The translations under genes were made by a program, and so were the position numbers. The notes beneath the pieces were generated by a model. The model had not been told where the DNA came from. It was given only the letters and a program-made list of their open reading frames with translations, and did no database searches. From a virus, in the IMG/VR virus record IMGVR_UViG_3300028607_001332, positions 1 through 39,801 of that record: a stretch of 39,801 bases of DNA; one strand, given 5' to 3'. Every line of letters starts with the position of its first letter. Within the stretch, counting starts at the first letter, position 1. This document shows positions 12,375 through 39,801 of the stretch, piece by piece.

Positions 12375-12375
12375 A

Positions 12376-22702: not shown

Positions 22703-22717
22703 GGCTACTGCGCTCCT

Positions 22718-22896
22718 TTAAGATGTCTTCGGAGTTTTGAAGGCAGCTAAAACATGAGGCTTAGTCTCACCATTTAGATACCTTCTCACCTGAGTTTTGC
22801 CTGTCCACTCTAAACAATTACTTTTTGTAGGAATCTCATTAACCCAATTCTAAGAGTAGGTAATACTTCTTTTAACCTATCAGGAGTTTTTATCAT
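22718..22896 (-). pseudogene. 59-aa small gene interrupted by a frameshift
   Basis: ATG 22896 lies one base after the previous stop and encodes MIKTPDRLKEVLPTLR, after which this frame soon ends. The -1 frame continues NWVNEIPTKSNCLEWTGKTQ and ends at TAA 22718, just before the tail tube ribosome site. Joined at CTT AGA the two halves give a single 59-aa protein; the span (179 bases) is one base short of a whole number of codons. Either a 1-base deletion, a sequencing error or an unusual frameshift. Function unknown. Confidence 0.55.
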
Positions 22897-22897
22897 T

Positions 22898-23991: not shown

Positions 23992-24000
23992 AGCTAAGCC

Positions 24001-24046
24001 CTAAAAGAAAGGCGTAGTGCAATTAATCCCGAAACTGCACTACGCC
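24001..24046 (-). terminator. Strong intrinsic terminator after the major capsid gene
   Basis: On the minus strand GGCGTAGTGCA (24046-24036) pairs perfectly with TGCACTACGCC (24021-24011), 11 bp with a 14-base loop, followed directly by TTTCTTTTAG (24010-24001). It lies 17 bases after the capsid stop and would set head protein output above that of tail genes. Confidence 0.9.
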
Positions 24047-24062
24047 CGGACGGTGCCATAAG

Positions 24063-25097: not shown

Positions 25098-25148
25098 CTG
25101 AGTTTCTCCATTACAAATTTAGGTTGACAGCTTAGGTAATTAAGTTTA

Positions 25149-25601
25149 CTAAGTAGTCTGAGTTGAAGTCACAGTCGGCAGAATCTTAGTCTGGATATTC
25201 AATGCTTCAGCGGCAGTTACGTATTCTGAAGAAGTAATCGCATCACCATAAACGTCTAACGCAGGAATCCTACCTTCATTAATAAGAGCAGGACCACGAG
25301 CAAGAATAGCGTATGGTAGAACAGTAATCGCTGCCGCTGCCATTGCAGCCGGGAGTTGTTTAGAATCAACAACAAAACCATCAACATTACCGGCAGTAAC
25401 ATCTGCTGTTGAAGCAAACTGCCATTGAGCACTAACAAGACGTAGAGGTTGACCAATTAGTTCTTGAGTAGCCGCGATGGATGGAGAAGTTCCAGCTACG
25501 GTAGCATCATTCTCTAAAGTTCCACTTTCACGAGTGTAACGCTGATCAACCTCGTAGAAAGCAAACTCGCTAACAGCAAGTCTTCTAGTATTAGACGCCA
25601 T
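25149..25601 (-). CDS. Capsid decoration protein (lambda gpD-like)
   Basis: A 150-aa Ala/Thr-rich protein with no Cys. It resembles the head-stabilising gpD type: an N-terminal disordered segment, GQPLRLVSAQWQFAST, VDGFVVDSKQLPAAM and LPYAILARGPALINEGRI. It lies between the protease/scaffold and the major capsid genes, the usual site of gpD. AAGGA before ATG 25601. It would bind the outside of the capsid at threefold sites. Confidence 0.8.
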   Translation of the reverse strand: MASNTRRLAVSEFAFYEVDQRYTRESGTLENDATVAGTSPSIAATQELIGQPLRLVSAQWQFASTADVTAGNVDGFVVDSKQLPAAMAAAAITVLPYAILARGPALINEGRIPALDVYGDAITSSEYVTAAEALNIQTKILPTVTSTQTT

Positions 25602-25670
25602 GTTTGAAATTCCTTATCTTAAGACTGTACTACGAGGTTAATGTTATACTAATGTTATGCTACTTTTAAC

Positions 25671-26207
25671 TTAGCGAGCAGCAACCATTTTAGCTTCTAT
25701 CTTCTCTTTTTGTTTCATCGCGTTAGCAATAACCGGATTAGTCTCTTTATCTAAGAGAGTTCCAACATCACCACCTTGCGGTCCAGTTGCTTCAGAAAGT
25801 TTGATAGGATCATTGTCTCTTAAAGCATCAACAACTCCATCAAAATTGTCTTCAACATCTTCTGCTAGAGAAAGAGTCAAAGTAGCTTCACCACAAAAGA
25901 TTTTCTCAAGTACATTCTTGACACAAGTAAGAATGTTACCTTTCTCAACAAGATTAGAAAGCTTAAGTTCTCTATTCTCTTTAAGCATCTTAACTTGTGA
26001 TTTTGAAATCTTAACAGGATCTTGAATTGGCGGATGAAGCTTCTTGTACTCAGAGAGTTCAAGAGTTATATTTTTAACTTGCTTACCTGAATCTTCTTTA
26101 AGATCTTTAAAAGATTCTGTAATAGCTTCATAAGCTTTTGTCTCATCAGACAAAATTTCATCACTAAGTTGTAGACCGATACTTGCGGCCAGTTCTTTAA
26201 TCGGCAT
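25671..26207 (-). CDS. Scaffold protein from an internal start
   Basis: ATG 26207 (MPIKELAASIGLQLSD) inside the protease gene, same frame, with AAAAAGGA 8 bases upstream. The encoded 178-aa acidic helical product has the traits of an internal scaffold. A nested scaffold is the rule in lambda C/Nu3-type genes. Confidence 0.65.
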   Translation of the reverse strand: MPIKELAASIGLQLSDEILSDETKAYEAITESFKDLKEDSGKQVKNITLELSEYKKLHPPIQDPVKISKSQVKMLKENRELKLSNLVEKGNILTCVKNVLEKIFCGEATLTLSLAEDVEDNFDGVVDALRDNDPIKLSEATGPQGGDVGTLLDKETNPVIANAMKQKEKIEAKMVAAR

Positions 26208-26756
26208 AATAATTTCCTTTTTGTTAGTCTCAGTCTCAATAACCAAACTGGCTGCAATTGGTGTGAACCCGTCTAAACCAGGGATAGTAGGGGAACCTGT
26301 TAGAGCTACGTGTTTAATAGCACGAACGTATTTATTCTTTATACCGTCTTCGGATGCAGGTGGGATGTAAATACTAGTTTGTGCAGTCCTGGCTAATTTA
26401 GCGGCTTCTTTATCCCGAAACTCTACACGAGAAAATAGACCTAATCTCCCTTTACTATCTTCTTTCGTGAACCATTTAAGGTTAAGACCACGATTAGCTT
26501 CTGTGTCATCAGTATGCTTAGTCGGTAAATTACATGGATTTCCATTATCAATGTATCGTTGACTTTCAGAAGCAATAACCTCAATTGCGTGATCCGTTAG
26601 CTCAAAATCAACTGGTCCTTTAGGAGTTTTCATCCTAAACTTACCAACATAAGCATGTTCTTTTTCAAAGAGAAGATTACTGTCATCAGATAGTGATATC
26701 ACATCACAATCTTTTGGTGCTTCAATAAGACTATATTCTATTGTCTCAACTGTCAT
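25671..26756 (-). CDS. Prohead protease (Mu I-like) with C-terminal scaffold
   Basis: A 361-aa protein. Residues about 30-170 are a herpesvirus-type serine protease fold as in Mu gpI: NLPTKHTDD with H81, TSIYIPP with S128, and VALTGSPTIPGL. Residues 184-361 are charged and helical (scaffold-like). An in-frame ATG at 26207 with AAAGGA 8 bases upstream would make the scaffold alone (178 aa), as in Mu gpZ and lambda Nu3. Ribosome site AGGAGAGGG before ATG 26756. The protease shapes the prohead and is lost on maturation. Confidence 0.85.
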   Translation of the reverse strand: MTVETIEYSLIEAPKDCDVISLSDDSNLLFEKEHAYVGKFRMKTPKGPVDFELTDHAIEVIASESQRYIDNGNPCNLPTKHTDDTEANRGLNLKWFTKEDSKGRLGLFSRVEFRDKEAAKLARTAQTSIYIPPASEDGIKNKYVRAIKHVALTGSPTIPGLDGFTPIAASLVIETETNKKEIIMPIKELAASIGLQLSDEILSDETKAYEAITESFKDLKEDSGKQVKNITLELSEYKKLHPPIQDPVKISKSQVKMLKENRELKLSNLVEKGNILTCVKNVLEKIFCGEATLTLSLAEDVEDNFDGVVDALRDNDPIKLSEATGPQGGDVGTLLDKETNPVIANAMKQKEKIEAKMVAAR

Positions 26757-26777
26757 AGCAACCCTCTCCTAATATAC

Positions 26778-26787
26778 AGTGTACACT
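26778..26787. promoter_or_regulatory. AGTGTACACT palindrome, copy 1
   Basis: Perfect 10-base palindrome about 20 bases upstream of the protease/scaffold start, between its ribosome site and the end of the preceding gene. The same palindrome recurs at 26835, 33145 and 35884. Candidate operator. Confidence 0.5.
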
Positions 26788-26789
26788 AA

Positions 26790-27206
26790 TTAAGCTTCTG
26801 CGTCTATAGCTTGTGGAAAATTTTTCGCTAATTCAGTGTACACTAACAGCTTGACCAAACCGCCATGAATTTTTACTATAGTCTGTTCAACCATTTTACG
26901 ATAGTTCATAACTTCGTCTATATCTTGAATATCTATCAATCTCCTATTATCATATAATAAAACTCCCGTGAGCCTTGCTGATAATGTAACAATAATAGGA
27001 TCATATACAGATTCTACAAGGATAAAAGGTACTGAGTATTTACATCCATAAAGTCTTGCATCAATTTGTTCTTTAGCTTCTAATATCGCCCAAGTAATAC
27101 GAGCAGATATTTCAGTTGCTACTTTATTATTATTTAAATCAGCCCACTTAGATACATTATCTGGACCGAATATATCTTCTGTGTCTGATTGTACTGAGTA
27201 AACCAT
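26790..27206 (-). CDS. Head-tail connector, Mu gp36-like
   Basis: A 138-aa helical protein starting MVYSVQSDTEDIFGPDNVSK with WADLNNN, then EISARITWAILEAKEQID and PIIVTLSARLTGVLLYDNRR. This N-terminal phrase and helical layout resemble the gp36-type connectors (DUF1320) of Mu-like and planctomycete-type phages. Position among head genes fits. The 3' end contains a copy of the AGTGTACACT palindrome. Confidence 0.65.
   Translation of the reverse strand: MVYSVQSDTEDIFGPDNVSKWADLNNNKVATEISARITWAILEAKEQIDARLYGCKYSVPFILVESVYDPIIVTLSARLTGVLLYDNRRLIDIQDIDEVMNYRKMVEQTIVKIHGGLVKLLVYTELAKNFPQAIDAEA
26835..26844. promoter_or_regulatory. AGTGTACACT palindrome, copy 2
   Basis: Inside the 3' end of the connector gene, where it encodes part of VYT, 57 bases from copy 1. 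Copies 1 and 2 share TTAGTGTACACTG on the minus strand. Confidence 0.45.
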
Positions 27207-27209
27207 AAC

Positions 27210-27728
27210 TTAACCTTCTTTACTAAGTTGTTCAGCAGCAATTAAATGAGTCTCTAAATCTCTTCTCATAAGTATTATAGAAGGTCTTATAATCTCAGCT
27301 AATGCTATATCAGAAGGTAACGCCTCATCTAATTTCTTAGACATACTTTCTACTACATCTAAAGATTCAAGAAAACATCTACCTAACGTAACAGTAGAAA
27401 ATCTACTGTTAGGATCATAGTGCATTGCTTCTATTCGTTGAACAACAGCTCCCATCTCTTCTGTTCTTTTTTCTGAAGTCTCAAGTAATGCAGCTACACG
27501 AGTACCTGTTTCTTTTTGTTTCTCAACAGATTCAGATAAAGATTTCTGTAGATCGTTAGTACTTTCAACATACTTAGTTAATAATCCATTCTTCTCATTA
27601 AGTAATCTCTTCCCTATCCACCAAGTAGCTAAAACAAAAAGCACTAACATCACTGTAGTTGCCCCGTACTTCGCAAACATGTCGATAAGCCCTGTTACTT
27701 CAACGACCTCTGCTTGTGCTGGCATCAT
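27210..27728 (-). CDS. Membrane-anchored coiled-coil protein (holin or spanin candidate)
   Basis: A 172-aa protein. Residues about 22-42 are one membrane segment (YGATTVMLVLFVLATWWIGK), followed by a long charged coiled coil (about 50-110) with repeated heptads. One N-terminal membrane anchor plus coiled coil fits an inner-membrane lysis protein or holin-like protein. It is coupled to the adjacent 66-aa two-segment protein by TGATG. The lysis role is an inference from this pair. Confidence 0.6.
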   Translation of the reverse strand: MMPAQAEVVEVTGLIDMFAKYGATTVMLVLFVLATWWIGKRLLNEKNGLLTKYVESTNDLQKSLSESVEKQKETGTRVAALLETSEKRTEEMGAVVQRIEAMHYDPNSRFSTVTLGRCFLESLDVVESMSKKLDEALPSDIALAEIIRPSIILMRRDLETHLIAAEQLSKEG

Positions 27729-27925
27729 TTTCTCTGCCCTCTCAAGTAAAGGATTATTGCTCTCTGAGTAAACTCATAAACTAACATACATACTGCAACT
27801 ATTGCCACCGTTATATGCTCAGTTACATTAAAATCTGAAGCTGTAAACCAAAGAACTATATAGAGTAGACCTAATCCTCCCCATATACGAATCAACATCC
27901 AATAACCGTGAAGAGAATCACTCAT
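27725..27925 (-). CDS. Small membrane protein (holin candidate)
   Basis: A 66-aa protein with two membrane segments (about 12-28, GGLGLLYIVLWF; about 36-58, ITVAIVAVCMLVYEF) and a basic C terminus LRGQRK. This is the class II holin layout. It overlaps its neighbours on both sides (ATGA). No endolysin gene is recognised beside it, so function is inferred from topology. Confidence 0.6.
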   Translation of the reverse strand: MSDSLHGYWMLIRIWGGLGLLYIVLWFTASDFNVTEHITVAIVAVCMLVYEFTQRAIILYLRGQRK

Positions 27926-28860
27926 GGTGCTCCTATAAAACTAGTTATTGTTGAAGTAGATGTATCAGCTATAGTAACTTTAAGAACTGTAGGCTTAGTA
28001 GTACCACGAATTATATGATAAGTAGCAAGTCTAACAAGAGTTAAAGTAGCTATACCACTAGCGTTTGAAGTAGCTGATTGTTTTGCTTTATCAAAAGCTA
28101 TCCCTGTACTATTAAGTGGTATCTCAATTAACTCAGCTTTAACAATTACTCCTTCTTCTATAATACCTAATTCATCTACACATTTAACTGTCACTGTAGA
28201 CAAACTAGGATCAGCAGGTGGAGTAATTACTAATAGTGTCATACTATAAGTAATAGAAGCAATAGCAGTAACTATTACAGTAGTCCCAGCAAAAGTATAA
28301 CCATCTTTAGTAATTGCTACATCATAAGTAGCGTCATCAACATTAAATACAATCACTCCACTTACATTTGTAGTTCCTAAAAATGTATTTGCACCTTCAG
28401 TTAACCTAACAGTTGCATTCTCTAATGGATCAGTTCCATCATCTACAGTTACAGTTATTGTTCTAGCACCAGTTCCAGAATTTACAAATCTATTTTCAAT
28501 GCTAAATGTAGCCAGAACATAGACAACTATTTGACCGTCTATTGTTTCATCACTTGGATCAAGAATGACTGTGTAATCCGCACCCGCTACCCAAAATCCT
28601 GTGTCATTAGTATCATTCGACGTATCTATTGTAAGATGATGTAAACCAGTGATAGAATCAAACGGACTTACTAAAGTCAATCCATCCGTTGCAGTCTTTT
28701 GAGTTGCTGAACCATTTTTATAAATTTTAACATCGTCTGATTCAAATGTCGTCGAAGGAGCAAAAGCCGCACCACTACTGTTCTCAGTTGTAAATGGTAT
28801 TTCAACTGTTGCATCTTCTGCAAAGTCACCTAAGTAGCTTGTAACTGAAACTAAGCTCAT
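27922..28860 (-). CDS. Baseplate or fibre-type structural protein
   Basis: A 312-aa beta-rich protein. Residues 1-125 have FAEDATVEIPFTTENSSGAA, DDVKIYKNGSATQK and the ending ATFSIENRF, a pattern frequent in N-terminal domains of phage BppU-like baseplate proteins. The rest is two carboxypeptidase regulatory-like beta sandwiches (about 130-210 and 215-312) with GVIVFNVDDATYDVAITKDG-type repeats. No enzyme motif. It is AT-rich in contrast to the GC-rich gene pair just upstream. Confidence 0.65.
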   Translation of the reverse strand: MSLVSVTSYLGDFAEDATVEIPFTTENSSGAAFAPSTTFESDDVKIYKNGSATQKTATDGLTLVSPFDSITGLHHLTIDTSNDTNDTGFWVAGADYTVILDPSDETIDGQIVVYVLATFSIENRFVNSGTGARTITVTVDDGTDPLENATVRLTEGANTFLGTTNVSGVIVFNVDDATYDVAITKDGYTFAGTTVIVTAIASITYSMTLLVITPPADPSLSTVTVKCVDELGIIEEGVIVKAELIEIPLNSTGIAFDKAKQSATSNASGIATLTLVRLATYHIIRGTTKPTVLKVTIADTSTSTITSFIGAP

Positions 28861-28878
28861 CCTAATAATCCTACGTTT

Positions 28879-29169
28879 TTATTCTGTCCTTCGTTGTAAT
28901 CCCGTACCGTCTAAAAGGTCTTGAAGTGAATCAAATCGTGGTCCCGAAACTTCTCGCTCGAAAATCGCAACCGTCTCAGCGTCAAAGTGTCGAGTGTCAC
29001 AAGCCCAATGAGTAATCGGTGCGTTTGAATTTGCAGCCAGCGGTATCGTAAATACTTGCGGTTCCGGGCCTGCGCGAAATCCCAGCAACGCTTGCAGCTT
29101 GGTTTCGGTTGCAAGTCGCTGTGGTGCAGCAGCAGAGACAATTTGAGTTATACGTGCTCGCCGTGTCAT
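28879..29169 (-). CDS. Hypothetical 96-aa protein of the GC-rich island
   Basis: ATG 29169 overlaps the stop of the LamG gene (ATGA). It starts MTRRARITQIVSAAAPQRLA and contains QALLGFRAGPEPQVFTIPL. Codon use and GC content match the LamG gene and differ from the rest of the window, so the two were probably acquired together. No domain recognised; it might be a small partner of the adhesin. Confidence 0.6.
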   Translation of the reverse strand: MTRRARITQIVSAAAPQRLATETKLQALLGFRAGPEPQVFTIPLAANSNAPITHWACDTRHFDAETVAIFEREVSGPRFDSLQDLLDGTGLQRRTE

Positions 29170-31382
29170 GTTGCGTACCTGTCTGCATGGTAGGCGGAAT
29201 CGCTCGTACGGCCAGCCGCATCCAGTTCATCTGGATACGTGGCAACGTCCATAATCGTACCCTCGAAGTAGTCAACCGTTGACGTATGCACCAACGCGCC
29301 AAGTGTGTGATTGTCTCTGCCGCTTATGTCTCCGAACCACTTTCCGCTATTGCTACCCGTCGTGACCGTCAGCGATTGAGCCACATCATTTACCCAGATC
29401 AACCACGCCGATCCTGTGGTCACAATGCGGATCGTATAGACCGTAGAGACAGTCAACACGGTATCGCCCGTTACGCGATGCACAGTGCCACTATCGACCG
29501 CCTCCACGTAGACCTTTCCCGCCGAATCGATCCCAAAGCAAAGGAAATTAGACGTTCCCGCTTCATCGCTAGAGGCTCCGAACACTTGATCGGCTGCGAA
29601 CGCCGTCGAACCTGTCTTGAAGTCGAACACGATTTCCGCGTCAGCCGCGTTGGTCAAGATCGTATCAGTTATCATGTAGTTGGTTGTGCCGTTGTACGTC
29701 ACACCCGGTTCACCCTCCGTAACCGATTCTGTCCATGTCGGCGTGTTGCCGGGCGTCGTCTGCTTATACTGGCCAGAGCCTACTTTCGGTTGCCACGTTA
29801 CAACCGCATCACCATCAGTTGGCGTCGTGCTTTGCGGGCCGTCGTCGAGATTCCAGTACCCAATGCGGTTTGCGGTTCCTGGATCGTCGCCAGGAACGCT
29901 CGGAGTGCCTGTGTGGTCTTCAAAAAGAAAGGTTACTTCATCGGCAGTCAGTGCATCATCGTAAAGAATGATCTCGTCAATCAAACCGCCAAACCTAGAT
30001 GATGTGACCCCAGTGGAAAACGATGCGCCAAGCGTGACATTGTCCAGCCCTGTTGGATAGTCGGACCACTTGCCGTCGTCTGCTCCGCTTGCAACATTCA
30101 GCGTTTCTTCAACCCCGTTGAGGTACAGTTTGTAACTTGCACCGTCCGAAACACCGACTGCGTGATACCAAGTATCAGCGATCAGGGTTGTCGAACCCTC
30201 CATTTCGTTTGTTACACCCGCCGTTTTGCGAACGAATAGGGAAATCACCCCCGTACTATCTATGCGCAAAGGCGCCCATGCGTCCGTCGTGTCCGCTTCG
30301 TCACGCGAGACGAACAAATGCTGTGCAGAGGCCACGGCATTAGCTTTGAACCAGAGAGAGACACTACCCTGCGATGTAAGTGTAAAGGCAGAACTGCCGG
30401 CATCTACATAATCAGCCACCCCGTTGAACTTCAAGCTGTTTCCAGTTGCGCCACTCGGAACGTCACTCGACCACATCCCAAGTGCGTTGGTGCTGACCAG
30501 CGTGCCGTCGTTCGATCCCGCAGAGTCAATCGCCTGTTGCGTTGTTGGTCCTCCAGATGTCGCTATGTTCGACCCGACGCGCGTTAAGTCGTGACCGCCC
30601 GTGTGTGCATCAAGCAAGCCAAGCGCGGGGTCTGTCTCGTTACACTGATAATACACTTTCAGATCCGTCAGCAGATCCGAACCGTCATCACCAACTTGAC
30701 CAAGCGAGCCGTAGAACTTGCCGCTGCCTGAGTTGTAAAGCCAAGTTTTCTCTGCTGCTGTCAGCGTTCGTTTCCAGTAGGCAATGCGCGAGACGGCAGC
30801 ATTCAAATACTGACCCGCCGTCAGAGTCGCATCGATTCCAACCGTAAAGTCGCTGCTCGTCGTACCTGGCGTCCCAGTTGTCGATGCGTCGTCGTCAGTT
30901 GCGTCGTCAATGCTGATGAATACTTTGTTTGTTGTGCTGTCGTGTCCGAAGACAAGAAAGTACCAACGTCCAACGGCAGGCGTGACGCCGGAATCAATCG
31001 TCCCGACCGTTGTCGTCACTCCGTCCATCACTCGCCAGTTCCATTTTATGGACAGCCAGGGCGGGATGCCCGTCTCTTCGTATCTCAGTTCATACTCGAA
31101 ATCGCCCGTGTCGTATTTCGCCAGAACAACTCCACCGATCGACGAGCTTAACTTAACCCACCCAGCAAACGTAAAGTCTATGTCGCCCGCTTGCAGATCG
31201 GCATGGCTGGCAATCTCGAAGTGGCTCGCGTCTGATGCAAGCAAAAGCCGAGCGCCTTGCGTGCCGACCTTAGTGTCTGCGCGCATCCAGCGAGTCGTAC
31301 CCGTAAGAGATAACTCACCAATATAACCCATTCCAAGATTCAAACCCATTCCAAGATTCAAACCAATGCCGATGCCTGTCAT
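29166..31382 (-). CDS. LamG/concanavalin-like adhesin, probable receptor-binding protein
   Basis: A 738-aa protein with three LamG-like lectin sandwiches at roughly residues 40-225, 300-485 and 500-735. Typical phrases are DFTFAGWVKLSSSIGG, GRWYFLVFGHD, GSVSLWFKAN, DTWYHAVGVSD, YLNGV and GLIDEIILYDDALTADEV. The N terminus carries the repeat GLNLGMGLNLGMG. It is the best candidate for host surface recognition. ATG 31382 has AGGG 8 bases upstream and is preferred to the TTG before it. The gene is much richer in GC than the head genes around it, indicating transfer. Confidence 0.85.
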   Translation of the reverse strand: MTGIGIGLNLGMGLNLGMGYIGELSLTGTTRWMRADTKVGTQGARLLLASDASHFEIASHADLQAGDIDFTFAGWVKLSSSIGGVVLAKYDTGDFEYELRYEETGIPPWLSIKWNWRVMDGVTTTVGTIDSGVTPAVGRWYFLVFGHDSTTNKVFISIDDATDDDASTTGTPGTTSSDFTVGIDATLTAGQYLNAAVSRIAYWKRTLTAAEKTWLYNSGSGKFYGSLGQVGDDGSDLLTDLKVYYQCNETDPALGLLDAHTGGHDLTRVGSNIATSGGPTTQQAIDSAGSNDGTLVSTNALGMWSSDVPSGATGNSLKFNGVADYVDAGSSAFTLTSQGSVSLWFKANAVASAQHLFVSRDEADTTDAWAPLRIDSTGVISLFVRKTAGVTNEMEGSTTLIADTWYHAVGVSDGASYKLYLNGVEETLNVASGADDGKWSDYPTGLDNVTLGASFSTGVTSSRFGGLIDEIILYDDALTADEVTFLFEDHTGTPSVPGDDPGTANRIGYWNLDDGPQSTTPTDGDAVVTWQPKVGSGQYKQTTPGNTPTWTESVTEGEPGVTYNGTTNYMITDTILTNAADAEIVFDFKTGSTAFAADQVFGASSDEAGTSNFLCFGIDSAGKVYVEAVDSGTVHRVTGDTVLTVSTVYTIRIVTTGSAWLIWVNDVAQSLTVTTGSNSGKWFGDISGRDNHTLGALVHTSTVDYFEGTIMDVATYPDELDAAGRTSDSAYHADRYAT
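31327..31362 (+). repeat. Two copies of an 18-bp tandem repeat
   Basis: CCCATTCCAAGATTCAAA occurs twice in a row and encodes the doubled GLNLGM at the N terminus of the LamG protein. In-frame and therefore length-variable without loss of frame. Confidence 0.9.
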
Positions 31383-31426
31383 CAATAAAGCCCTAGCAGT
31401 AACATTGCAGTTGTAAAGATTAAAAT

Positions 31427-31666
31427 TTAATAGATTCCAACTAAATTAGTTGCAGCAGTGCCAGTAGAATTAACTCTACTACATCTAACAGGAATTATTG
31501 TTCCTGCGACCGCACTTGTAAATGTTACAGTTTCACCTTTCTCGGTTACAAGTGTAATATCACCTACCACGCCTACATAAATACCACGAGCATTAACTGT
31601 AAAATTAGTACTATCACTTGGTGTAATAGCAAAAGCACCTTGACCCGGATCTGACTGTATTGTCAT
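31427..31666 (-). CDS. Small structural protein (decoration-like)
   Basis: A 79-aa beta-rich protein with FAITPSDSTNFTVNARGIYV, GDITLVTEKGETVTFTSA and IIPVRCSRVNSTGT. This small beta-sandwich type, recurrent in phage head regions, is usually annotated as a virion protein of unknown role. AGGA ahead of ATG 31666. It lies between portal and the adhesin. Confidence 0.7.
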   Translation of the reverse strand: MTIQSDPGQGAFAITPSDSTNFTVNARGIYVGVVGDITLVTEKGETVTFTSAVAGTIIPVRCSRVNSTGTAATNLVGIY

Positions 31667-31679
31667 AATTTATTTCCTA

Positions 31680-33125
31680 TTATAACTTAGTTTTCTCACC
31701 CTGAACGGGATTAAGTCCTGTTCCTGATCCTACTGATCCTACTGATCCTACTGATCCTACTGATCCTACTGATCCTACTGGTACTTCAGGAAAATCAAAC
31801 TCGCTATCATCATCTTCACCGTCATTCATCGGCAAGCCTAACTGTTCTTTAACTTCATCAGCATTTATCTTCTTAAGTGCAGTTTCAGGATCATGCTGCA
31901 TAAGAGTTTGAAAGACTTGACGCAGAAATATTTTTAAGTCATCAGCTATAGGTGCAGCCTTCAAAAATACCGTACCTATAGCTTCTCTGCCATAATTATA
32001 TCTAAGTAGATCATTAACTAACTGATAACTAATCTGTTCAGTTAATCTAGCATGACGATAATCTAATATTACTATTGCTAAATCAGAATGAACTTCAGCT
32101 TCAGATTTAGTACCAAACTTACCCTCAAGAATCGCTCTTTCAGGAAAACCTAAAGCTCTAACCTTAAGAGCATCATAGTACTTTAATCTATCAATAAAAG
32201 CTGCTTGTTGACTAGACTGATCAGATAGAAGTTCTATTTTCCAAGCATCAGGAGCATCTTGGTTTAACATCTCAACTGTTTCATCAATTTGACGAGGAAC
32301 AGCAATAGCTCCTGAACTTTCTAAGTTTCTAATAAGATTCCGAGCAATAATAAAATTGTCAGTCTCTATCCCATCTACTTTAGTGTTACCAAGAGGATAA
32401 TGTATAACCCAATGTGATCCAGCTATCTTTCTATCATATCTATCTGCTGAATCATTAACTGTTTTCCATCCATCATAAGGTATAATAGCATCTTCCATGA
32501 TTGCTCTACCATACCAATAAGTCCCCTCTACATTGATATTAGTAAGGATAGTTTCTCTAGCTTTTAAGAAACCTTGTCCAAAAGCTAAATGGCCACCAAC
32601 TCTTATAATCTCAAATTTCTTACCATGAACTGGATTTTGTAAGACTCCTACATACTCGCCAGTATGTACATCTACAAGTATCCTAGTAATATCTTGAAGT
32701 AATGGTTTAACCTTATCTATTACCGTCTTACCGGAATTATCAATAACCCATATCTTCTCAAAAGTTTGCCAACCAAAATCTAGCCAACCAGTAAGAGAAT
32801 GAGTAACTAAATAATTACGTATATTGGTTATATTACGAGTAACAAACTGAACCGCACCTTCAGGTGCATCCTCAGTATGTCCGACCGACCATTTAGAAGA
32901 AACTATTGATCCTACAATAAGATTCCGAACTAAAGAAATAGTCGGATCTTTACGCATCAACCGAACTTTATTTAACCAATCAGCAGGGTAGACTGTATGT
33001 AGTTCGGGTTGCGTTAAACCAAAAGAAGCCGTTGCTACTTGTGGTGCTGATTTTTCTGAAGTTTTTGCTCGTCCATTACGTTTGTCTCGAATGTCTCTTG
33101 TAACTGGATCATTACTTTGTGCCAC
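31680..33125 (-). CDS. Portal protein
   Basis: A 481-aa protein downstream of the large terminase. It has LTQPELHTVYPADWLNKVR, LMRKDPTISLVRNLIVG, SLTGWLDFGWQTFEKI and a crown region with LGFPERAILEGKFGTKSEAE, typical of Mu gp29/DUF935-type portals. The GTG start at 33125 is chosen for AGGAG upstream. The C terminus ends in an unusual sixfold VGS repeat encoded by 9-base units, then GTGLNPVQGEK. The portal forms the DNA channel and binds terminase. Confidence 0.85.
   Translation of the reverse strand: MAQSNDPVTRDIRDKRNGRAKTSEKSAPQVATASFGLTQPELHTVYPADWLNKVRLMRKDPTISLVRNLIVGSIVSSKWSVGHTEDAPEGAVQFVTRNITNIRNYLVTHSLTGWLDFGWQTFEKIWVIDNSGKTVIDKVKPLLQDITRILVDVHTGEYVGVLQNPVHGKKFEIIRVGGHLAFGQGFLKARETILTNINVEGTYWYGRAIMEDAIIPYDGWKTVNDSADRYDRKIAGSHWVIHYPLGNTKVDGIETDNFIIARNLIRNLESSGAIAVPRQIDETVEMLNQDAPDAWKIELLSDQSSQQAAFIDRLKYYDALKVRALGFPERAILEGKFGTKSEAEVHSDLAIVILDYRHARLTEQISYQLVNDLLRYNYGREAIGTVFLKAAPIADDLKIFLRQVFQTLMQHDPETALKKINADEVKEQLGLPMNDGEDDDSEFDFPEVPVGSVGSVGSVGSVGSVGSGTGLNPVQGEKTKL
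31724..31777 (+). repeat. Six copies of a 9-bp tandem repeat in the portal 3' end
   Basis: Unit CTGATCCTA repeated six times without change; the minus-strand translation is (VGS)6. Slippage would change the tail length in steps of three residues. Confidence 0.95.
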
Positions 33126-33144
33126 GGTAAATACTCCTATTTAC

Positions 33145-33154
33145 AGTGTACACT
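33145..33154. promoter_or_regulatory. AGTGTACACT palindrome, copy 3
   Basis: Lies about 20 bases upstream of the portal start, in the spacer after the terminase gene. On the minus strand it shares TTAGTGTACACTGTA with copy 1. Candidate operator or promoter element. Confidence 0.5.
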
Positions 33155-33174
33155 AATGCTCTACTATACTATAG

Positions 33175-34530
33175 CTAGAACGCCTGCATAGCAATACTCT
33201 GTGACTTTGGTTTTCCTACACGCATTGGAAATTGTGAGTACATAAGATAACCTAGAGCATCAGTCATATGCCCTGCATCATCTTGATCATTAGGATCTGA
33301 AGTTCCTTCTTTATATGCTCTATAGTTTAAATCATCAATTAGTCTCTTACACTTTGAATGTACATAGAATCTCACTGTTCCTTCAGCACTTTGTATCACT
33401 GAGTTACAAACAGAGAATCTATCAGCAAGACCCGGATTTTTATTAGGAATAAGAACCTTTCTATCAGTCCAATTAGCAGGTTTAAAATTTACTATATGAA
33501 GATAGTCACTTATAGAAGCTGAAGTTCGACGTTGGTGTGAAGCCGCATCACCACAAAAATATACTCTTTCCTTATGAAAAGCATACTTCTTATATAACAT
33601 ATTCAAAGATTCAGGAGTATTCGTATTCCTTATAAACACTTCATCTAATGCTACAAGTAACTTCTCTCCAGGGCATATCGGATGATTTTCTCTTATTTGA
33701 CAAACTACCCAACACATAGGATCTACATTAAAATCCATCCCGATATATAGAGGTAGGTGTGGTTGATACTGACAAATAGAGTCTTTTATATGAATATGTT
33801 CTTTAAAGGTATAAAATATTAAACCACCAGCTTGTTCCCATGAAGCATTAAACTGCTCATTATAATCTTTTGGGTCCATACTCTTCTTATAACCTTCAAG
33901 CTTGATTGGATCTAAAATATCCGATGAAGGCCATGAATACGTCTCTGTATCAATATTAGCTGGATCATTACCAAAGTCACAAGCTAGTTTGAACTCTCTT
34001 GATCCTATCCCTGTTCTCTTAGGTACTCCTATCCTCCATACCCAACCATCACGCCATGTCAGAGCTGGTTTTATTGAAAGATCAAAAGATCCGGGTTTCT
34101 GATCACAAGCTTCATCAACTACACCACCATCATATTGAGCACCTTCAATCCGTTGAGGCATATCCATTCCGAGTACATATAATTCACTACCAAATATAGT
34201 TTTTATATGCATATCCATAATGTTAGCATGACCGCCGTTCTTAGGATCTATCCAATATTTAGGAATAAGATCCATCAATTCTTTCCACGCAACCCTCTTA
34301 GCTTGATTATATGTTGGAAGTGCATAAAAATAGATTGGCTTTCTCCAAGGTTTTCTTTGCATTAAAGATAGAACTATCTTACGTCTAGCTAGTTCTGTTT
34401 TACCACTTCCACGACCACAAGGTAAGTTAATAAACTTTGTCGTAGAATGGAAAGCCGCCGCCTGTTTAGCATGGTACTTGAGCGGAGTCCAACGTGGGGG
34501 AATTTCTACATATCGTTGTTTTTGGATCAT
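33175..34530 (-). CDS. Terminase large subunit
   Basis: A 451-aa DNA packaging motor. ATPase: Walker A GRGSGKT (39-45), Walker B GGVVDEA (D139, E140) and a VPKRT coupling region. Nuclease: GMDFNVDP with D266, DEVF with D296/E297, and FCGDAASHQRR with D328. Length is normal. It lies between the small gene at 34540 and the portal, the usual order. It would cut and pump phage DNA into the prohead. Confidence 0.93.
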   Translation of the reverse strand: MIQKQRYVEIPPRWTPLKYHAKQAAAFHSTTKFINLPCGRGSGKTELARRKIVLSLMQRKPWRKPIYFYALPTYNQAKRVAWKELMDLIPKYWIDPKNGGHANIMDMHIKTIFGSELYVLGMDMPQRIEGAQYDGGVVDEACDQKPGSFDLSIKPALTWRDGWVWRIGVPKRTGIGSREFKLACDFGNDPANIDTETYSWPSSDILDPIKLEGYKKSMDPKDYNEQFNASWEQAGGLIFYTFKEHIHIKDSICQYQPHLPLYIGMDFNVDPMCWVVCQIRENHPICPGEKLLVALDEVFIRNTNTPESLNMLYKKYAFHKERVYFCGDAASHQRRTSASISDYLHIVNFKPANWTDRKVLIPNKNPGLADRFSVCNSVIQSAEGTVRFYVHSKCKRLIDDLNYRAYKEGTSDPNDQDDAGHMTDALGYLMYSQFPMRVGKPKSQSIAMQAF

Positions 34531-34539
34531 AAGTCATTA

Positions 34540-34797
34540 TCAAATCTCTAATTCAATATCAGATACTATCGCACTAATAGGAATAGTCATGTCCCCACAT
34601 CCTTGAATTCTACAATGATTATTCTCACCTGTCATATGTGGAACTAAAACAACAACTTTTTCATCACGAAAAACTTCAAACCCAATACTAGTATTAATCA
34701 AAGGCTCTACTGATTTTAAATCTTTTAATTTTACCCATGAAGAATTCACACCAAAAGAATCTTCCCATCTAATAAGTTTTATCTTATATTTATTCAT
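34540..34797 (-). CDS. Hypothetical 85-aa protein
   Basis: ATG 34797 overlaps the upstream stop (ATGA). It starts MNKYKIKLIRWEDSFG and is beta-rich, with no Cys pair knuckle or membrane segment. It reads like a small SH3-type domain (strands with conserved W, G, V) but no family is certain. It sits between the putative small and large terminase genes. Confidence 0.65.
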   Translation of the reverse strand: MNKYKIKLIRWEDSFGVNSSWVKLKDLKSVEPLINTSIGFEVFRDEKVVVLVPHMTGENNHCRIQGCGDMTIPISAIVSDIELEI

Positions 34798-35396
34798 CCA
34801 GCCTCTACTGCTCCAGATATCTCAGTACTCGAAGCAACTCCTGGAGCCTGCGGCACAGTTTCTATCATAGCTCCAAATTCATACTCTACAGCAAGTGCTT
34901 GATCATCGGCTTCTTGAAATACTACTCTACTTCTCAACTCATTCTCAAACTTATCCATTATAGTAACAGACTGTTGATCTCCTTCATTAAAATACTCATG
35001 AACCAAAGAAACTACTGCATTCATTAGTAACATAAGCGTGTTCTGAGTCAAAGTCTCTCTTGTCTTAGAATCTGCAACGACAGCGGACATAACAAAATCT
35101 TTTTGACTCTTCATTGTATCTGCCATACGTTCACCTACGATATTTAAGTGAGCGTTAGCGGCTGTAAGAAGATCTTGCATAACTTGATTGTTAGGAGATT
35201 CTTTTAACTTTACTTCTGCACTCTTAACTATACTTCTAGCTTTACTCCAATTTCCTATTGAATCTTTGCACCGTTCTCTATGTACTGCTACTTCTTCATT
35301 AAGACTCAATTGTTCTGAAGTAAGAAGTTTTAATTGTGCAGCTACACTCTCCTGTAGGTCTTCAGTTAGACAGTCTTTATAGAAGTTTTGGGGCAT
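34794..35396 (-). CDS. Possible terminase small subunit
   Basis: A 200-aa helical protein with coiled-coil stretches (KLLTSEQLSLNEEVAVHRER; KARSIVKSAEVKLKES) and a flexible C terminus (VPQAPGVASSTEISGAVEAG). It is the second gene upstream of the large terminase. Small terminases are helical oligomers in this place, but no N-terminal helix-turn-helix is clearly seen. It could be another DNA-packaging or head protein. Confidence 0.45.
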   Translation of the reverse strand: MPQNFYKDCLTEDLQESVAAQLKLLTSEQLSLNEEVAVHRERCKDSIGNWSKARSIVKSAEVKLKESPNNQVMQDLLTAANAHLNIVGERMADTMKSQKDFVMSAVVADSKTRETLTQNTLMLLMNAVVSLVHEYFNEGDQQSVTIMDKFENELRSRVVFQEADDQALAVEYEFGAMIETVPQAPGVASSTEISGAVEAG

Positions 35397-35404
35397 AGAT
35401 TATA

Positions 35405-35830
35405 TCATGGGTAAATAGCTAAACCAACAGTTAGGATAGAAATAACAATATTGTTATCAACATTTCCATAACCTATAATTGTTGGATTAAGACCAGAAAC
35501 TAAAGCTGTGTCACCTGATTCTGTCTGTCCAACATCATCAGATACAAAGTATACCATACCTTGAGTTGCATTAACTCCAAGATAAATGATACCACCAGTT
35601 TGTAAACCAATAACATCATCCTCAACACCTGTATCCAAAGCATAAGCAACAAATGCTGCCGGTGCTGGATCAACAGTATTACCATCAGCTAGATAATACT
35701 TATTATCTGTAGAACTCTTATAAAGAGGTTGCCCTCTGTTCGCAGCTTCCCCAAGAGTACCTGTAGTAAGTTGACCAGATGTTGCTTGTACAGTACGTAC
35801 ACCTATTGAAACATAAGCTAAATTAGCCAT
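35405..35830 (-). CDS. Head-fibre or decoration-type protein
   Basis: A 141-aa beta-rich protein with TGTLGEAANRGQPLYKSSTD, KYYLADGNTVDPAPAAFVAY and GLQTGGIIYLGVNATQGMVY. The GxAxxRGQPLY, KY.LAD and TGG phrases recur in small phage head-fibre and DUF2190-like proteins. A stem (see 35840-35885) lies just before its ribosome site. Its role on the capsid is inferred. Confidence 0.65.
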   Translation of the reverse strand: MANLAYVSIGVRTVQATSGQLTTGTLGEAANRGQPLYKSSTDNKYYLADGNTVDPAPAAFVAYALDTGVEDDVIGLQTGGIIYLGVNATQGMVYFVSDDVGQTESGDTALVSGLNPTIIGYGNVDNNIVISILTVGLAIYP

Positions 35831-35839
35831 TGAAAACTC

Positions 35840-35885
35840 CTAACTAATAACTGGGATACATTGTAAATTACCTTGTATTAGTTAG
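35840..35885 (-). promoter_or_regulatory. Stem-loop before the head-fibre gene
   Basis: CTAACTAATA (plus 35840-35849) and TATTAGTTAG (35876-35885) form a 10-bp inverted repeat. Its downstream edge touches the TTAGGAG ribosome site of the gene starting at 35830. It might modulate its translation. Confidence 0.5.
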
Positions 35886-35893
35886 TGTACACT
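35884..35893. promoter_or_regulatory. AGTGTACACT palindrome, copy 4
   Basis: About 55 bases upstream of the head-fibre gene, next to the stem-loop at 35840-35885, in the spacer after the 86-aa gene. Same perfect palindrome as the three other copies. Confidence 0.5.
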
Positions 35894-35895
35894 AG

Positions 35896-36156
35896 TTAGC
35901 TCCAGTTATCTTCCAGTTCATCAAGAAATTCAGAAACGTCATCTACATCAGCAGATTCAAGTTCTCTCATAGCTTCATTTAACATTTTACGAAGTTCATG
36001 CCTTTTATGTCCTTTTCTACGTAATGCTTTACGTAATCTCCCTCTAGCAATATTAGGATTATCCTTTATTGCTTGAGCACGAGAAACATTATCGTCATCT
36101 CGACATTTCTCAAATAGATCACTAATAAGAGGCAATAATATAATTAACCACTCCAT
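35896..36156 (-). CDS. Hypothetical 86-aa protein with hydrophobic N terminus
   Basis: Starts MEWLIILLPLISDLFEKCRD with AGGAG 7 bases upstream. Residues 3-14 are hydrophobic but short. The middle is very basic (GRLRKALRRKGHKRHELRK), the end acidic (DVDDVSEFLDELEDNWS). It could be membrane-associated. Function unknown. Confidence 0.65.
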   Translation of the reverse strand: MEWLIILLPLISDLFEKCRDDDNVSRAQAIKDNPNIARGRLRKALRRKGHKRHELRKMLNEAMRELESADVDDVSEFLDELEDNWS

Positions 36157-36166
36157 AACTATTCTC

Positions 36167-36976
36167 CTACGGTTTTAATTCAGGAATTGGCATAAACGAA
36201 GGTACTGCTACCTCTAAAATCACATAAAGTGTTAAGTTTCTATAGACTCTTAGACTATCATAACCAATTCCATCGTCACCCCAACTTGGTGACCAGGAAT
36301 TAGCATATGGGACGAATGCATCTCTACCTTCTACTTTTAAACCAACATAAGGAACACAATGTCTTGATCTACCTACTATTCCACAAAAATTATTAGCCAT
36401 TGCGGATTCTATTTCATCTGCACCCCTAGCAGTTGCCCATTTAGTAACTCTATGTTGTATTTTATCTTCCCAACCTGATGGTGGATCAGTTCTATAAGCA
36501 AGCCTGTCCCAAGTTAGATCAAACTTATCTTCATTCTCACTACCCGTCATAGGTAATGTACCTATATTTGCCGCACGTTTCATTCCATCAGAAATCATGG
36601 CTCCACTCATTAGAGTTCTACCAATATACCGATAAATGAACATACCTGAAAGACTAGTATGATTCTCTTCACCAAATCGTCTTGTATATGTTATCTCCAT
36701 AGCTTGTGCTATACCAAAACCTACACAAGCTGAAGTTTGACCTTGACTATATATCTTCTCAATAGTATCGAGTTGTTTATCCCAATTCTTTAAAGCTAAT
36801 TCTCTACGTTCATCTTTAGTTAGCATTAAAGCAGGATATTCTTCTTCAAAACTCTTCATCTCTCCAGTAGCCATCAATACCTGGCTCTCTGTCTCTTCAA
36901 TTAGACCTGTACCTTCTCCATCAGGTACATCACTTAAATCTAAGTCAACAAACTTACGATCAATTGGTAGTGGCAC
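36167..36976 (-). CDS. Papain-like cysteine peptidase (C1 family)
   Basis: A 269-aa protein from GTG 36976, chosen because AAGGAG lies 7 bases upstream; an earlier in-frame start at 37009 lies inside the previous gene. It has YSQGQTSACVGFGIAQAMEI with the oxyanion Gln (Q78) and catalytic Cys (C84), SRHCVPYVGLK with His (H206) and PYANSWSPSWGDDGIGY with Asn (N226), the C/H/N triad and NSWG box of papain. No signal peptide of its own; the preceding gene encodes a secreted protein. It might act on head or tail proteins or on the host envelope. Confidence 0.85.
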   Translation of the reverse strand: MPLPIDRKFVDLDLSDVPDGEGTGLIEETESQVLMATGEMKSFEEEYPALMLTKDERRELALKNWDKQLDTIEKIYSQGQTSACVGFGIAQAMEITYTRRFGEENHTSLSGMFIYRYIGRTLMSGAMISDGMKRAANIGTLPMTGSENEDKFDLTWDRLAYRTDPPSGWEDKIQHRVTKWATARGADEIESAMANNFCGIVGRSRHCVPYVGLKVEGRDAFVPYANSWSPSWGDDGIGYDSLRVYRNLTLYVILEVAVPSFMPIPELKP

Positions 36977-37700
36977 CGTGTATCTCCTTAAGCTTAGAGA
37001 TAAGATCACTTGAACTTAATTCTTTTAATTCGCCCGACCATTTAACGACGGCGTGACCCGAACCATCTAGCTGGACGAAAAAAACGAAAGGGAGCGTGGT
37101 TGCCTTATCAGCGTAAGATTTAACTGTCTTATTAACTGATCCATCTGCATTTTCAGCATCAGGAGGAAACTCAAAATGTGAATAATTCAGCTTACCATCA
37201 ACAAAAGTTCTAAGATCAAAAAGCTTACCTCTTTCACTAGCATTTAATTTAGAAGCTTCAGCAATAATGATCGAAGTTACTTTCCCACTTGTAGGAGTAT
37301 CGTCTATATCTGGCGGATCGTCAGGATCATCAGGATCATCAGGTATAATAGGTGGTGGTCTAGCACCTTCAACAGTTAAAGTAAATATTCTCTCTACAGT
37401 ATCAAATTCTTTTGCTTCCCAATTAATTAACCAAGCATCCAGCATTATTTCGTAAGTTCCTGGTTTAGCCCAAACAGAACACTCGTGTCTATTATTTGTG
37501 GTATGAGGTCTCAAGTCTACTTCAATAGAACGTGTTCTCCATTGAATACGAGCTAATTTAAAACCATCAGGAATTTCTACTCCAGCAGATAGAACTATTG
37601 CTCTATGCTCCTTAAAGGTGAATTTTTCTTCAGTATGTACTGAAAGCTGCTGACCACCGTTAATACCTGAAAATAGAAACAACAGCACTAAAATTTTCAT
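36960..37700 (-). CDS. Secreted protein with acidic Pro-rich linker
   Basis: A 246-aa protein with signal peptide MKILVLLFLFSGINGG. Residues about 20-110 form a beta domain (ending GTYEIMLDAWLINWEA, TVERIFTLTVEG). Then follows a linker PDDPDDPDDPPDID from 9-base repeats. A C-terminal domain (about 140-246) contains SHFEFPPDAENADGSV and ELKELSSSDLISKLKE. Start ATG 37700 overlaps the previous stop (ATGA). It precedes the papain-like gene, with which it may act. Function unknown. Confidence 0.7.
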   Translation of the reverse strand: MKILVLLFLFSGINGGQQLSVHTEEKFTFKEHRAIVLSAGVEIPDGFKLARIQWRTRSIEVDLRPHTTNNRHECSVWAKPGTYEIMLDAWLINWEAKEFDTVERIFTLTVEGARPPPIIPDDPDDPDDPPDIDDTPTSGKVTSIIIAEASKLNASERGKLFDLRTFVDGKLNYSHFEFPPDAENADGSVNKTVKSYADKATTLPFVFFVQLDGSGHAVVKWSGELKELSSSDLISKLKEIHGATTN

Positions 37701-37969
37701 GAGTGATTCCTAATAGTTTGTATATGTTTCCCTGTACTATCAAAAATTTTAATAGTATTGATAGATGCACTAGGCTTATGTATCTCAATACAAGTTGTAC
37801 TTAGTGGTGGATTTACTGTTATAAGCGACTTATCTTGTGAGACACTAACTATATCTTTACCATTAGTATCAATAACTTCTACAAAATTAACAGGTGCATC
37901 TTTACATACACCTATAGAACTTCCTCGATTATGCTGCTTAATCTCAAAAGTTTCTTTATCTATCCCCAT
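37697..37969 (-). CDS. Hypothetical 90-aa protein
   Basis: Starts MGIDKETFEIKQHNRGSSIG; ATG overlaps the upstream TGA (TGATG). It is beta-rich with two Cys (SIGVCKD, TTCIEIH). No signal or membrane segment. It belongs to a run of small coupled genes before the secreted protein. Function unknown. Confidence 0.65.
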   Translation of the reverse strand: MGIDKETFEIKQHNRGSSIGVCKDAPVNFVEVIDTNGKDIVSVSQDKSLITVNPPLSTTCIEIHKPSASINTIKIFDSTGKHIQTIRNHS

Positions 37970-38148
37970 CAGCTATCGCCTTGTCTTTCATCAGCGTAGT
38001 GTTCTTCTAATTCTTCAACTTTAGCTAATAGCTCTTTAATTTTCTCGTATGCGTCAAGGCATATAACAGAATCAAATGAATTATCAGCTAATTCATAAGT
38101 CCGACTTCGCAACTCTCTTAATAATTCTGCTGTGTCTGCTGTGTCCAT
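37969..38148 (-). CDS. Small acidic coiled-coil protein, 59 aa
   Basis: A short gene that fills the gap before 38155. ATG 38148 to TGA 37969-37971 encodes MDTADTAELLRELRSRTYEL, continuing with a helix KIKELLAKVEELEEHYADE. Its stop overlaps the next start (TGATG). The high charge and heptad pattern make a coding frame very likely. Function unknown. Confidence 0.7.
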   Translation of the reverse strand: MDTADTAELLRELRSRTYELADNSFDSVICLDAYEKIKELLAKVEELEEHYADERQGDS

Positions 38149-38154
38149 ATCAGA

Positions 38155-38394
38155 TCAAACCTCAACTTCTTCAATAATAAACTCTTTCCATGGATCAGTA
38201 ATATAAGGATATGAACCCCATATCCTTACAATAACTAAACACGTTTTATCTTCAACAATAATTTCTTCTACCTTTGATCTAAATATCCGTCCAGGTAATG
38301 AAGACTCTGAAAAATTCATCGCATTACTAGCTCGCACTAGATTATGTTTATCTACCCTATAGACTTCTAGATGTCCGGTGTCTTCATTGTCCAT
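38155..38394 (-). CDS. Hypothetical 79-aa protein
   Basis: Starts MDNEDTGHLEVYRVDKHNLV and has beta strands (VEEIIVEDKTCLVIVRIWGS) and an acidic end EFIIEEVEV. No known motif. It is placed tightly between its neighbours on the same strand. Function unknown. Confidence 0.65.
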   Translation of the reverse strand: MDNEDTGHLEVYRVDKHNLVRASNAMNFSESSLPGRIFRSKVEEIIVEDKTCLVIVRIWGSYPYITDPWKEFIIEEVEV

Positions 38395-38403
38395 AATATA
38401 TCA

Positions 38404-38988
38404 CTAGCTTTCCAGTATATCAACCTGACCTTTTAAATCAGCTAGACGTAACTCTAGTTGTTTCTCTACTATTCTACTAAAGTATCGTCGTAGTCTGTTA
38501 CTTACAAATCTACGAAGATTGCAATTATGGAAGTCTGGATTAACAAACTTACTTAAGATACGATCAAGATAGAAATAACATTCTTGAAACGCATCTTCCT
38601 CGCTAAAAAATTGCTGGATTAGTGGCTCTTTGTCGTATAATCTACGAACTTCTTTTTTCATCCATCCATAGTGAGTATTTAGAAATTGCTCAGGAGAAAT
38701 GAATCTAAACACATTATCATCATATACTATCTGATAAGTTTTAGTTCCTCTAGAGTGAAAACTCTTTAGGAGCATTTCACTATTCTCAATAGGATGTATC
38801 TCAACTGTAGACTCAAAAGTTGTAGGTAGACTCTCACAAATAGCACTTTTAAGTGGTCGGATACTCTCCGGTAAAAGAGTAAAAACAGCAATAATATTTG
38901 GGGGTGGAATCGTATTCATATGAAGTAAGACTTTATTAATAACTAAGATAACACTCTTAGTATCACTGATCTTTAGACGTAATATCAC
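38404..38988 (-). CDS. Sigma-70 region 2-like protein (putative)
   Basis: A 194-aa protein; GTG 38988 gives the full frame, ATG 38919 a shorter one, neither with a strong ribosome site. The C-terminal half reads HYGWMKKEVRRLYDKEPLIQ, then FFSEEDAFQECYFYLDRIL, then NLRRFVSNRLRRYFSRIVEK. This resembles the region 2 helices of sigma-70 factors (EDxxQE followed by an R-rich helix). Region 4 is not seen. It might be a phage late-transcription factor of reduced type. Weak but specific pattern. Confidence 0.5.
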   Translation of the reverse strand: MILRLKISDTKSVILVINKVLLHMNTIPPPNIIAVFTLLPESIRPLKSAICESLPTTFESTVEIHPIENSEMLLKSFHSRGTKTYQIVYDDNVFRFISPEQFLNTHYGWMKKEVRRLYDKEPLIQQFFSEEDAFQECYFYLDRILSKFVNPDFHNCNLRRFVSNRLRRYFSRIVEKQLELRLADLKGQVDILES

Positions 38989-39034
38989 CTATCACTTATT
39001 ACTGTTTATTTGTACCTTCGACATCAAGGACAAC

Positions 39035-39196
39035 AAAACGGCAGTCTCGACAATCTAACCTTTCCACGAGGCCAACACGCTAACACAGTTAATAACAAAG
39101 ATGGGCTGCTTCGGTTTCCCGTCCTGACCCGGTGTCTTCACTACTAACTCGCTAACATCGCACCTTAGTACCGGAGCCCGATTGTCGAGACGTTTC
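39035..39196 (-). ncRNA. SRP RNA-like (4.5S/ffs-type) RNA
   Basis: In the gap 38989-39232, minus strand. The apical part (39130-39103) reads GGGTCAGG, then a CGG-GAAA-CCG hairpin, then AAGCAGCCC, the SRP domain IV pattern (GUCAGG ... GNRA loop ... AAGCAGC) that binds Ffh. GGGT pairs with GCCC. Below is a 15-bp helix (39149-39135 with 39101-39087) with four wobble pairs valid only as minus-strand RNA. A 12-bp closing helix follows: GTCTCGACAATC 39191-39180 with 39055-39044, plus GAAAC/GTTTT beyond a bulge. About 160 nt in all. Known SRP RNAs are host genes; this copy lies among phage genes. Confidence 0.8.
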
Positions 39197-39232
39197 GGTG
39201 GCCTTCTGTGACCTCCTAGCCGTGTAAACTAA

Positions 39233-39643
39233 TCACCATCGATAGAAAACTCCACCTGTAGGTGTAGGAACAAACAAACGTATGCTGGATTGCTGCCGAT
39301 TATTACCATAGCTACCGTACCTAGCACGTTGTAAGCTAGCCCTATTCATGCCTCTAGTACCATTGATATAAGCAGCAGAGATCTTAATCCGCTGCCTTCT
39401 AGCTTCAGACTTAGCAATAGAAGCAGTCATGCGTTGACCTCTGAACCAACTTTTTCTAGCTTCTTCTCGTTCCTTCCATTCTTCTCTAGTCTTATGAGGC
39501 ATAGAATACCAATCTGGCAGGCCGTTACTGTCTCCAAAACCACCGGTGTCGCTGCCGATGAAATCAGGTAGCCGTTGTGCCACTGCCTTTGAGGGCGCCT
39601 GACTCAGGCTCATTAGGAGTATCACGATCACGATCATCCTCAC
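39233..39643 (-). CDS. Small secreted basic protein
   Basis: A 136-aa protein with a signal peptide (MRMIVIVILLMSLSQAPSKA, then VAQ|RLP likely cleavage). The mature part is Arg/Lys-rich (RKSWFRGQRMTASIAKSEAR) with a Tyr/Gly end GGVFYRW. GTG 39643 overlaps the previous stop (GTGA); an ATG two codons in is an alternative. No enzyme motif. It lies just upstream of the SRP-like RNA. Function unknown. Confidence 0.65.
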   Translation of the reverse strand: MRMIVIVILLMSLSQAPSKAVAQRLPDFIGSDTGGFGDSNGLPDWYSMPHKTREEWKEREEARKSWFRGQRMTASIAKSEARRQRIKISAAYINGTRGMNRASLQRARYGSYGNNRQQSSIRLFVPTPTGGVFYRW

Positions 39644-39663
39644 TGTCGTTCCTCACTGTCGTT
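39638..39663 (+). repeat. 13-bp tandem duplication at a gene junction
   Basis: CCTCACTGTCGTT occurs twice in a row across the end of the right-edge gene and the start of the secreted protein gene. Confidence 0.9.
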
Positions 39664-39801
39664 TCTCCTATCTATCTCTTCACCAATTATTTTCAAAGCA
39701 TCAGAAGTAAAGACGCCTAAATGCCCAATCTGAAACCCAACTTCAGTTAATGGAGCTAAGTTATCCTCACCAGTAATACCGCTACAATTATTGTTAGTGT
39801 G
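39640..39801 (-). CDS. C-terminal end of a gene entering from the right edge
   Basis: Open to the right edge, ends at TGA 39642-39640. The visible 53 residues include CSGITGEDNLAPLTEVGFQI, then GHLGVFTSDALKIIGEEIDR, then a charged end RRNDSEERQ. Reads as a true coding end, coupled to the next gene by GTGA. Not recognised. Confidence 0.6.
   Translation of the reverse strand, partial: HTNNNCSGITGEDNLAPLTEVGFQIGHLGVFTSDALKIIGEEIDRRNDSEERQ

Follow-up and report, generated by a model that had tools for sequence, protein, structure and literature searches.

Does a phage carry its own version of the essential cellular RNA in the signal recognition particle (SRP), the machinery for protein targeting, and is the SRP rebuilt by infection? 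The question is raised by a locus in the window, the whole stretch of 39,801 nucleotides analysed here, an IMG/VR virus record whose gene products include members of the phage primase/helicase, portal and major head families and a terminase related to those of hundreds of phages. The locus lies in a gap between two minus-strand genes of unassigned family, an upstream 136-aa gene with a signal-peptide-like start (39233-39643) and a downstream 194-aa gene (38404-38988), and the candidate RNA is on the same strand as both. Among the open-access papers searched, a set without subscription articles or preprints, we found none that reports a phage-encoded SRP RNA.

A sequence-only reading had described an SRP domain IV signature on the minus strand of this gap, and all of the elements it named can be located there. 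The likely extent of the RNA is 148 nt (39044-39191, minus strand), with bounds set by the closing helix and ends that are approximate. Read from 5′ to 3′, its outer part consists of a closing helix, interrupted pairing, a 9-bp helix seen in the sequence (39158-39150 with 39085-39077) and a 15-bp helix seen in both fold and sequence (39149-39135 with 39101-39087). The closing helix is the perfect 12-bp pairing that had been claimed (39191-39180 with 39055-39044), and GCCGTTTTG follows its 3′ arm. The inner part of the fold continues with an asymmetric loop, CACC on the 5′ side (39131-39134) and A39102 on the 3′ side, a helix GGGU / GCCC and a symmetric loop CAGG / AGCA, and the apex adds an extra A.A step at the symmetric loop before a CGG / CCG stem and a GAAA loop. 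At the level of sequence, the signature comprises GGGTCAGG (39130-39123), the CGG-GAAA-CCG hairpin (39121-39112, with GAAA at 39118-39115) and AAGCAGCCC (39111-39103), and the domain IV core, which takes in the symmetric loop, the apical stem and the GAAA loop, is the 26-nt GGTCAGGACGGGAAACCGAAGCAGCC (39104-39129). The RNA thus holds the elements that contact the Ffh M domain, that is, the symmetric loop (CAGG / AGCA) and the asymmetric loop (ACC / A), as well as the GNRA tetraloop of SRP RNA domain IV.

Of the pairs in the 15-bp helix, exactly four are G-U. In plus-strand RNA these would turn into A.C mismatches, so they favour the minus strand. On that strand, positions 39035-39196 fold with -59.9 kcal/mol (z -3.68, equalled in 0 of 200 shuffles), compared with -42.8 kcal/mol (z -2.31) on the plus strand, and in 300 shuffles of the 244-nt gap a perfect inverted repeat of at least 12 bp turned up twice. 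A chance origin of the structure is excluded. The longest open frame crossing the core has 57 codons, and neither a sigma-70-like promoter nor a standard terminator was matched at the RNA.

Comparison with the Rfam SRP models, proposed earlier as a check, returned a significant match to RF00169 (Bacteria_small_SRP) on the minus strand at 39067-39163, which runs end to end in sequence and structure (model positions 1-97 of 97) with 37.9 bits and an E value of 9e-7 for 331 bases, or 2.5e-8 over the whole record. This score is 2.1 bits under the gathering cut-off of 40 bits, and a scan of the window at gathering thresholds reported nothing, the match appearing with the E-value setting only; the RNA is therefore invisible to a default Rfam scan, and we file it as a divergent SRP-type RNA and not as a curated member of RF00169. 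A covariance model built from 13 other viral SRP RNAs, with the window RNA left out, recovered it as the sole match in 39.8 kb (30.5 bits, E 1.2e-7), a score below the 36-65 bits of the other viral RNAs, nearly all of which are training sequences. By its sequence and predicted fold, the RNA of this phage is genuine and of the SRP type, though divergent.

With RF00169 and 4.5S RNA (clan CL00003; E. coli ffs) the window RNA shares the core motifs GGUCAGG and AGCAGCC, the symmetric and asymmetric loops, the GNRA loop and a rod-like hairpin without an Alu domain. Unlike them, it is virus-encoded, scores under the family cut-off, has an A+U-rich arm and, with the 12-bp helix at its base, spans about 148 nt. 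Its core also differs: whereas the E. coli SRP RNA core and those of the other viral RNAs have 24 nt, with an apical stem of three pairs set directly on a 4x4 symmetric loop, the extra A.A step in the apical stem brings the window core to 26 nt. The exact 26-mer had 0 matches in a collection of 84,980 species genomes, and a degenerate 26-nt core, scanned in one fixed register of the longer stem, occurred at 48 places in the same collection, none of them SRP-RNA-like on inspection.

As the RNA is found only 0.6 kb from the window end, a phage contig joined to host DNA would be one way to account for it, an artefact that the sequence-only reading had itself named and that we regard as extremely improbable. 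A second contig, L119 (3300023192_001486), matches window positions 22701-39801 at 99.7%, with 12 substitutions and one 43-nt indel, none inside the RNA, and extends 1,233 bp past the window end. The same-strand genes of that extension include one for an 88-aa crAss001_48-family protein just past the window end (L119 17262-17528; PF21825, 47 bits), which we take to resemble Acb2-type anti-CBASS proteins. The contig of this second strain spans the RNA, has phage genes to either side of it and runs on for 1.2 kb into a phage-family gene, which for practical purposes rules out a join to host DNA. Scans for tRNA genes found none in the window or in L119. The terminase and capsid relatives of the window phage, with a best identity of 41% in isolate phages, were too distant for its host to be assigned from them.

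We then searched 2.9 million viral contigs for variants of the core pattern, folded the matches and scored them with Rfam. SRP-like RNAs were found in 17 further IMG/VR records (G021, G090-G096 and G098-G106), corresponding to about 14 distinct RNAs, with near-duplicates in the pairs G094/G104, G096/G105 and G100/G106. Seven of the 17 reach the Rfam cut-off for RF00169 (G096, 58.5 bits; G105, 53.3; G092, 49.9; G101, 43.7; G095, 41.9; G099, 41.4; G093, 40.0), and the remaining scores are 38.2 (G021), 36.4 (G090, G091), 33.7 (G094, G104), 33.6 (G100, G106), 31.8 (G103), 29.8 (G098) and 26.4 bits (G102). In several of these RNAs the lower helix is only short.

The carriers are mostly large phages. 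The best case for viral status is made by G099, a 158-kb contig with a terminase, and by G101, which has tail proteins as well as a terminase; G095, G098 and G106 encode phage replication, recombination or nucleotide-metabolism families, G092 encodes RtcB, HNH and exonuclease families, and the CTP synthase of G090 shares 66% identity with its counterpart in a 595-kb uncultured phage. For the short records G096, G102, G103 and G105, the assignment to viruses comes mainly from IMG/VR. Many of the RNAs sit inside tRNA arrays (52 tRNAs in 107 kb in G106, 63 in the 80 kb read of G098 and 25 in 46 kb in G021), with RtcB or GroEL nearby in some, and this company is phage translation cargo. The viral SRP RNAs, the window RNA among them, form a recurrent set that is apparently undescribed.

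The tRNA content itself varies between contigs. The 46-kb record G021 (L116-L118; 3300035698_028977), for example, has a canonical-core SRP RNA at 17310-17388 between tRNA-Glu and tRNA-Arg, and GroEL-like and RtcB-like reading frames besides its 25 tRNAs. The tRNA genes found in G090 (L297-L300), G093 (L308), G095 (L310-L314), G099 (L316-L318) and G104 (L328-L331), numbering 21, 5, 13, 11 and 11, are only of Leu, Ser, Tyr and Phe isoacceptors, unlike the broad sets of G098 and G106.

The viral set was measured against two controls. A reversed pattern gave 15 matches, 0 with a fully paired apical stem, compared with 39 of 46 for the forward pattern. Across the apical stems of 15 distinct viral RNAs with a 24-nt core, 44 of 45 pairs are canonical and include many pair types, whereas shuffled partners give a mean of 23 of 45 and reached 44 in 0 of 10,000 trials; the set was prefiltered for folding of the core and lower helix, with no direct filter on the apical stem, and the statistic ignores kinship. 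Because the pattern requires the core letters and GNRA loop, we do not count their conservation as independent evidence; most viral SRP RNAs also have A(A/C)C in the asymmetric loop, which the search pattern did not specify.

The expectation that pairing is kept in relatives and that related phages carry the same RNA holds in part. Pairing is kept across the other viral SRP RNAs, and 17 other viral records have an RNA of this type, but no moderately diverged relative with the RNA was found: among terminase relatives of the window phage it occurs in none except the near-identical contig, and the viral 13-RNA model, run on 19 terminase-relative loci, found nothing besides that contig. The argument for selection is accordingly made for the viral class and not for the window lineage. 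The central claim, a phage-encoded SRP-like RNA, is borne out by the Rfam match, the viral model, the strand-specific fold, the second strain's contig and the presence in other viral records of this RNA type with base changes that compensate each other.

Several matches were left out of this count. Records from isolate genomes with the common core GGTCAGGGGAGGAATCC were excluded because their matches are probably SRP genes of the host at the ends of prophages; many of the isolate-derived prophage records L002-L031 have one SRP core, in several about 560 bases from the record end, as if prophages insert beside the host SRP gene in this group. Five strong matches (G003, G006, G007, G018 and G032) were left out as records whose viral status is not established; one of them, the 18-kb contig G003 (L120; 3300024309_000099), has two SRP matches, at 2701-2797 and 17055-17148 (77.8 and 33.6 bits), and may be host DNA. 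Matches to the 26-nt core in L023, L025, L026, L032, L033, L222 and L252 were without an RF00169 match and were treated as chance, and L265, which has the core letters with neither fold nor Rfam match, was rejected. BLASTN searches of 50,697 phage records with the window RNA and with composite queries from viral SRP RNAs gave no convincing match. Nor did RF00169, pattern or R1 searches of named huge and jumbo phages (the LR7565xx and LR7452xx uncultured huge phages, phage G, Atu_ph07, SCTP-2, XacN1, CcrColossus, Lak-A1 and 121Q), where methods varied by phage and the stricter filters may lose weak matches.

What might such an RNA do in an infected cell? No Ffh or FtsY gene was found in the 19 records tested, where the best sub-threshold matches cover about 30 residues and are probably P-loops, so any action of the RNA would need host Ffh. 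The steering of export and the titration of Ffh, both suggested by the sequence-only reading, are plausible but putative roles. We lean, with moderate confidence, towards the window segment being a phage SRP RNA gene whose domain IV binds host Ffh to give a working hybrid SRP. The RNA would be transcribed during infection, fold as a hairpin with the 12-bp helix at its base and load host Ffh; the hybrid particle of phage RNA and host Ffh would then dock with host FtsY and could sustain co-translational membrane targeting when host gene expression is disturbed or, as an alternative outcome, bias targeting toward phage membrane and secreted proteins. In published structures, the tetraloop and long distal arm act in FtsY docking and GTPase activation (PMC4737761), and both are retained in the window RNA. 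A hybrid SRP is favoured over Ffh titration because the window RNA keeps this docking loop and arm and because many of the other viral RNAs accompany tRNAs, and some GroEL or RtcB. More tentatively, and short of what we would call probable, viruses of bacteria may repeatedly carry SRP RNA and take over host Ffh, with an infection-specific SRP that alters the choice of proteins directed to the membrane.

Docking with FtsY might suffer from the extra A.A step, and it is here that the main rival begins: with the Ffh-contact loops intact yet the apical stem altered, the RNA might bind host Ffh unproductively with respect to FtsY, tie it up as a decoy and block the insertion of host membrane proteins, for example envelope or defence proteins. 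The short lower helix of several other viral RNAs, which may lack the distal GTPase site, points the same way, as does the moss chloroplast SRP RNA, in which a 10-nt apical loop reduces SRP54 affinity, so that apical changes matter (PMC5115805). Chloroplast SRP RNAs resemble the window RNA in being divergent with an altered apical region, and still bind SRP54-type proteins; they differ in being organelle-encoded, and the moss apical loop is enlarged whereas the window RNA has a GNRA loop on a longer stem (PMC5115805). A pure sponge, however, would need neither the GNRA loop nor the long arm that the window RNA keeps, tRNAs beside many of the other viral RNAs are helpful cargo for translation, and blocking the SRP would also harm the phage's own membrane proteins, for which reasons we think a decoy rather unlikely.

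Less likely again is that an SRP gene was acquired from the host and now has no phage role. Every host has an SRP RNA to offer, prophage ends beside host SRP genes occur in the collection, and no diverged relative of the window phage was found with the RNA, all in keeping with such a passenger; its fold is nevertheless intact although it has diverged from the family consensus, its exact core is absent from the species genomes searched, and the class seems to be under selection, given that such RNAs recur independently in other viruses with compensating changes. We give very little weight to an SRP-resembling untranslated region, processing site or attenuator, to which the intergenic position on the coding strand and a TTTT soon after the closing helix would be suited, since an end-to-end match to the SRP model with all of the Ffh-contact motifs is unexpected in an attenuator and the standard terminator was not matched.

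If phages do bring SRP RNAs of their own, large phages would take over protein targeting as well as decoding and folding, and the data suggest that some viruses provide a component of the host system for membrane-protein targeting or put their own in its place. The closest parallel is the tRNA array of large phages, likewise a case of stable RNA of host type in a phage genome and the home of many of the other viral SRP RNAs, though not of the window RNA. Viral SRP RNA would serve protein targeting and not decoding, and would be the protein-targeting counterpart of phage-encoded tRNAs. Default annotation hides such RNAs, the window case lying just under the Rfam threshold and others standing unannotated in tRNA arrays, and the short and long natural variants among them offer a means to learn which parts of an SRP RNA are required. 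Elsewhere in the window, positions 9955-15651 hold a gene cluster that is unusual phage cargo: a glycosyltransferase whose match is GtrB-like and a pair of radical SAM proteins, of which one has a B12-binding domain.
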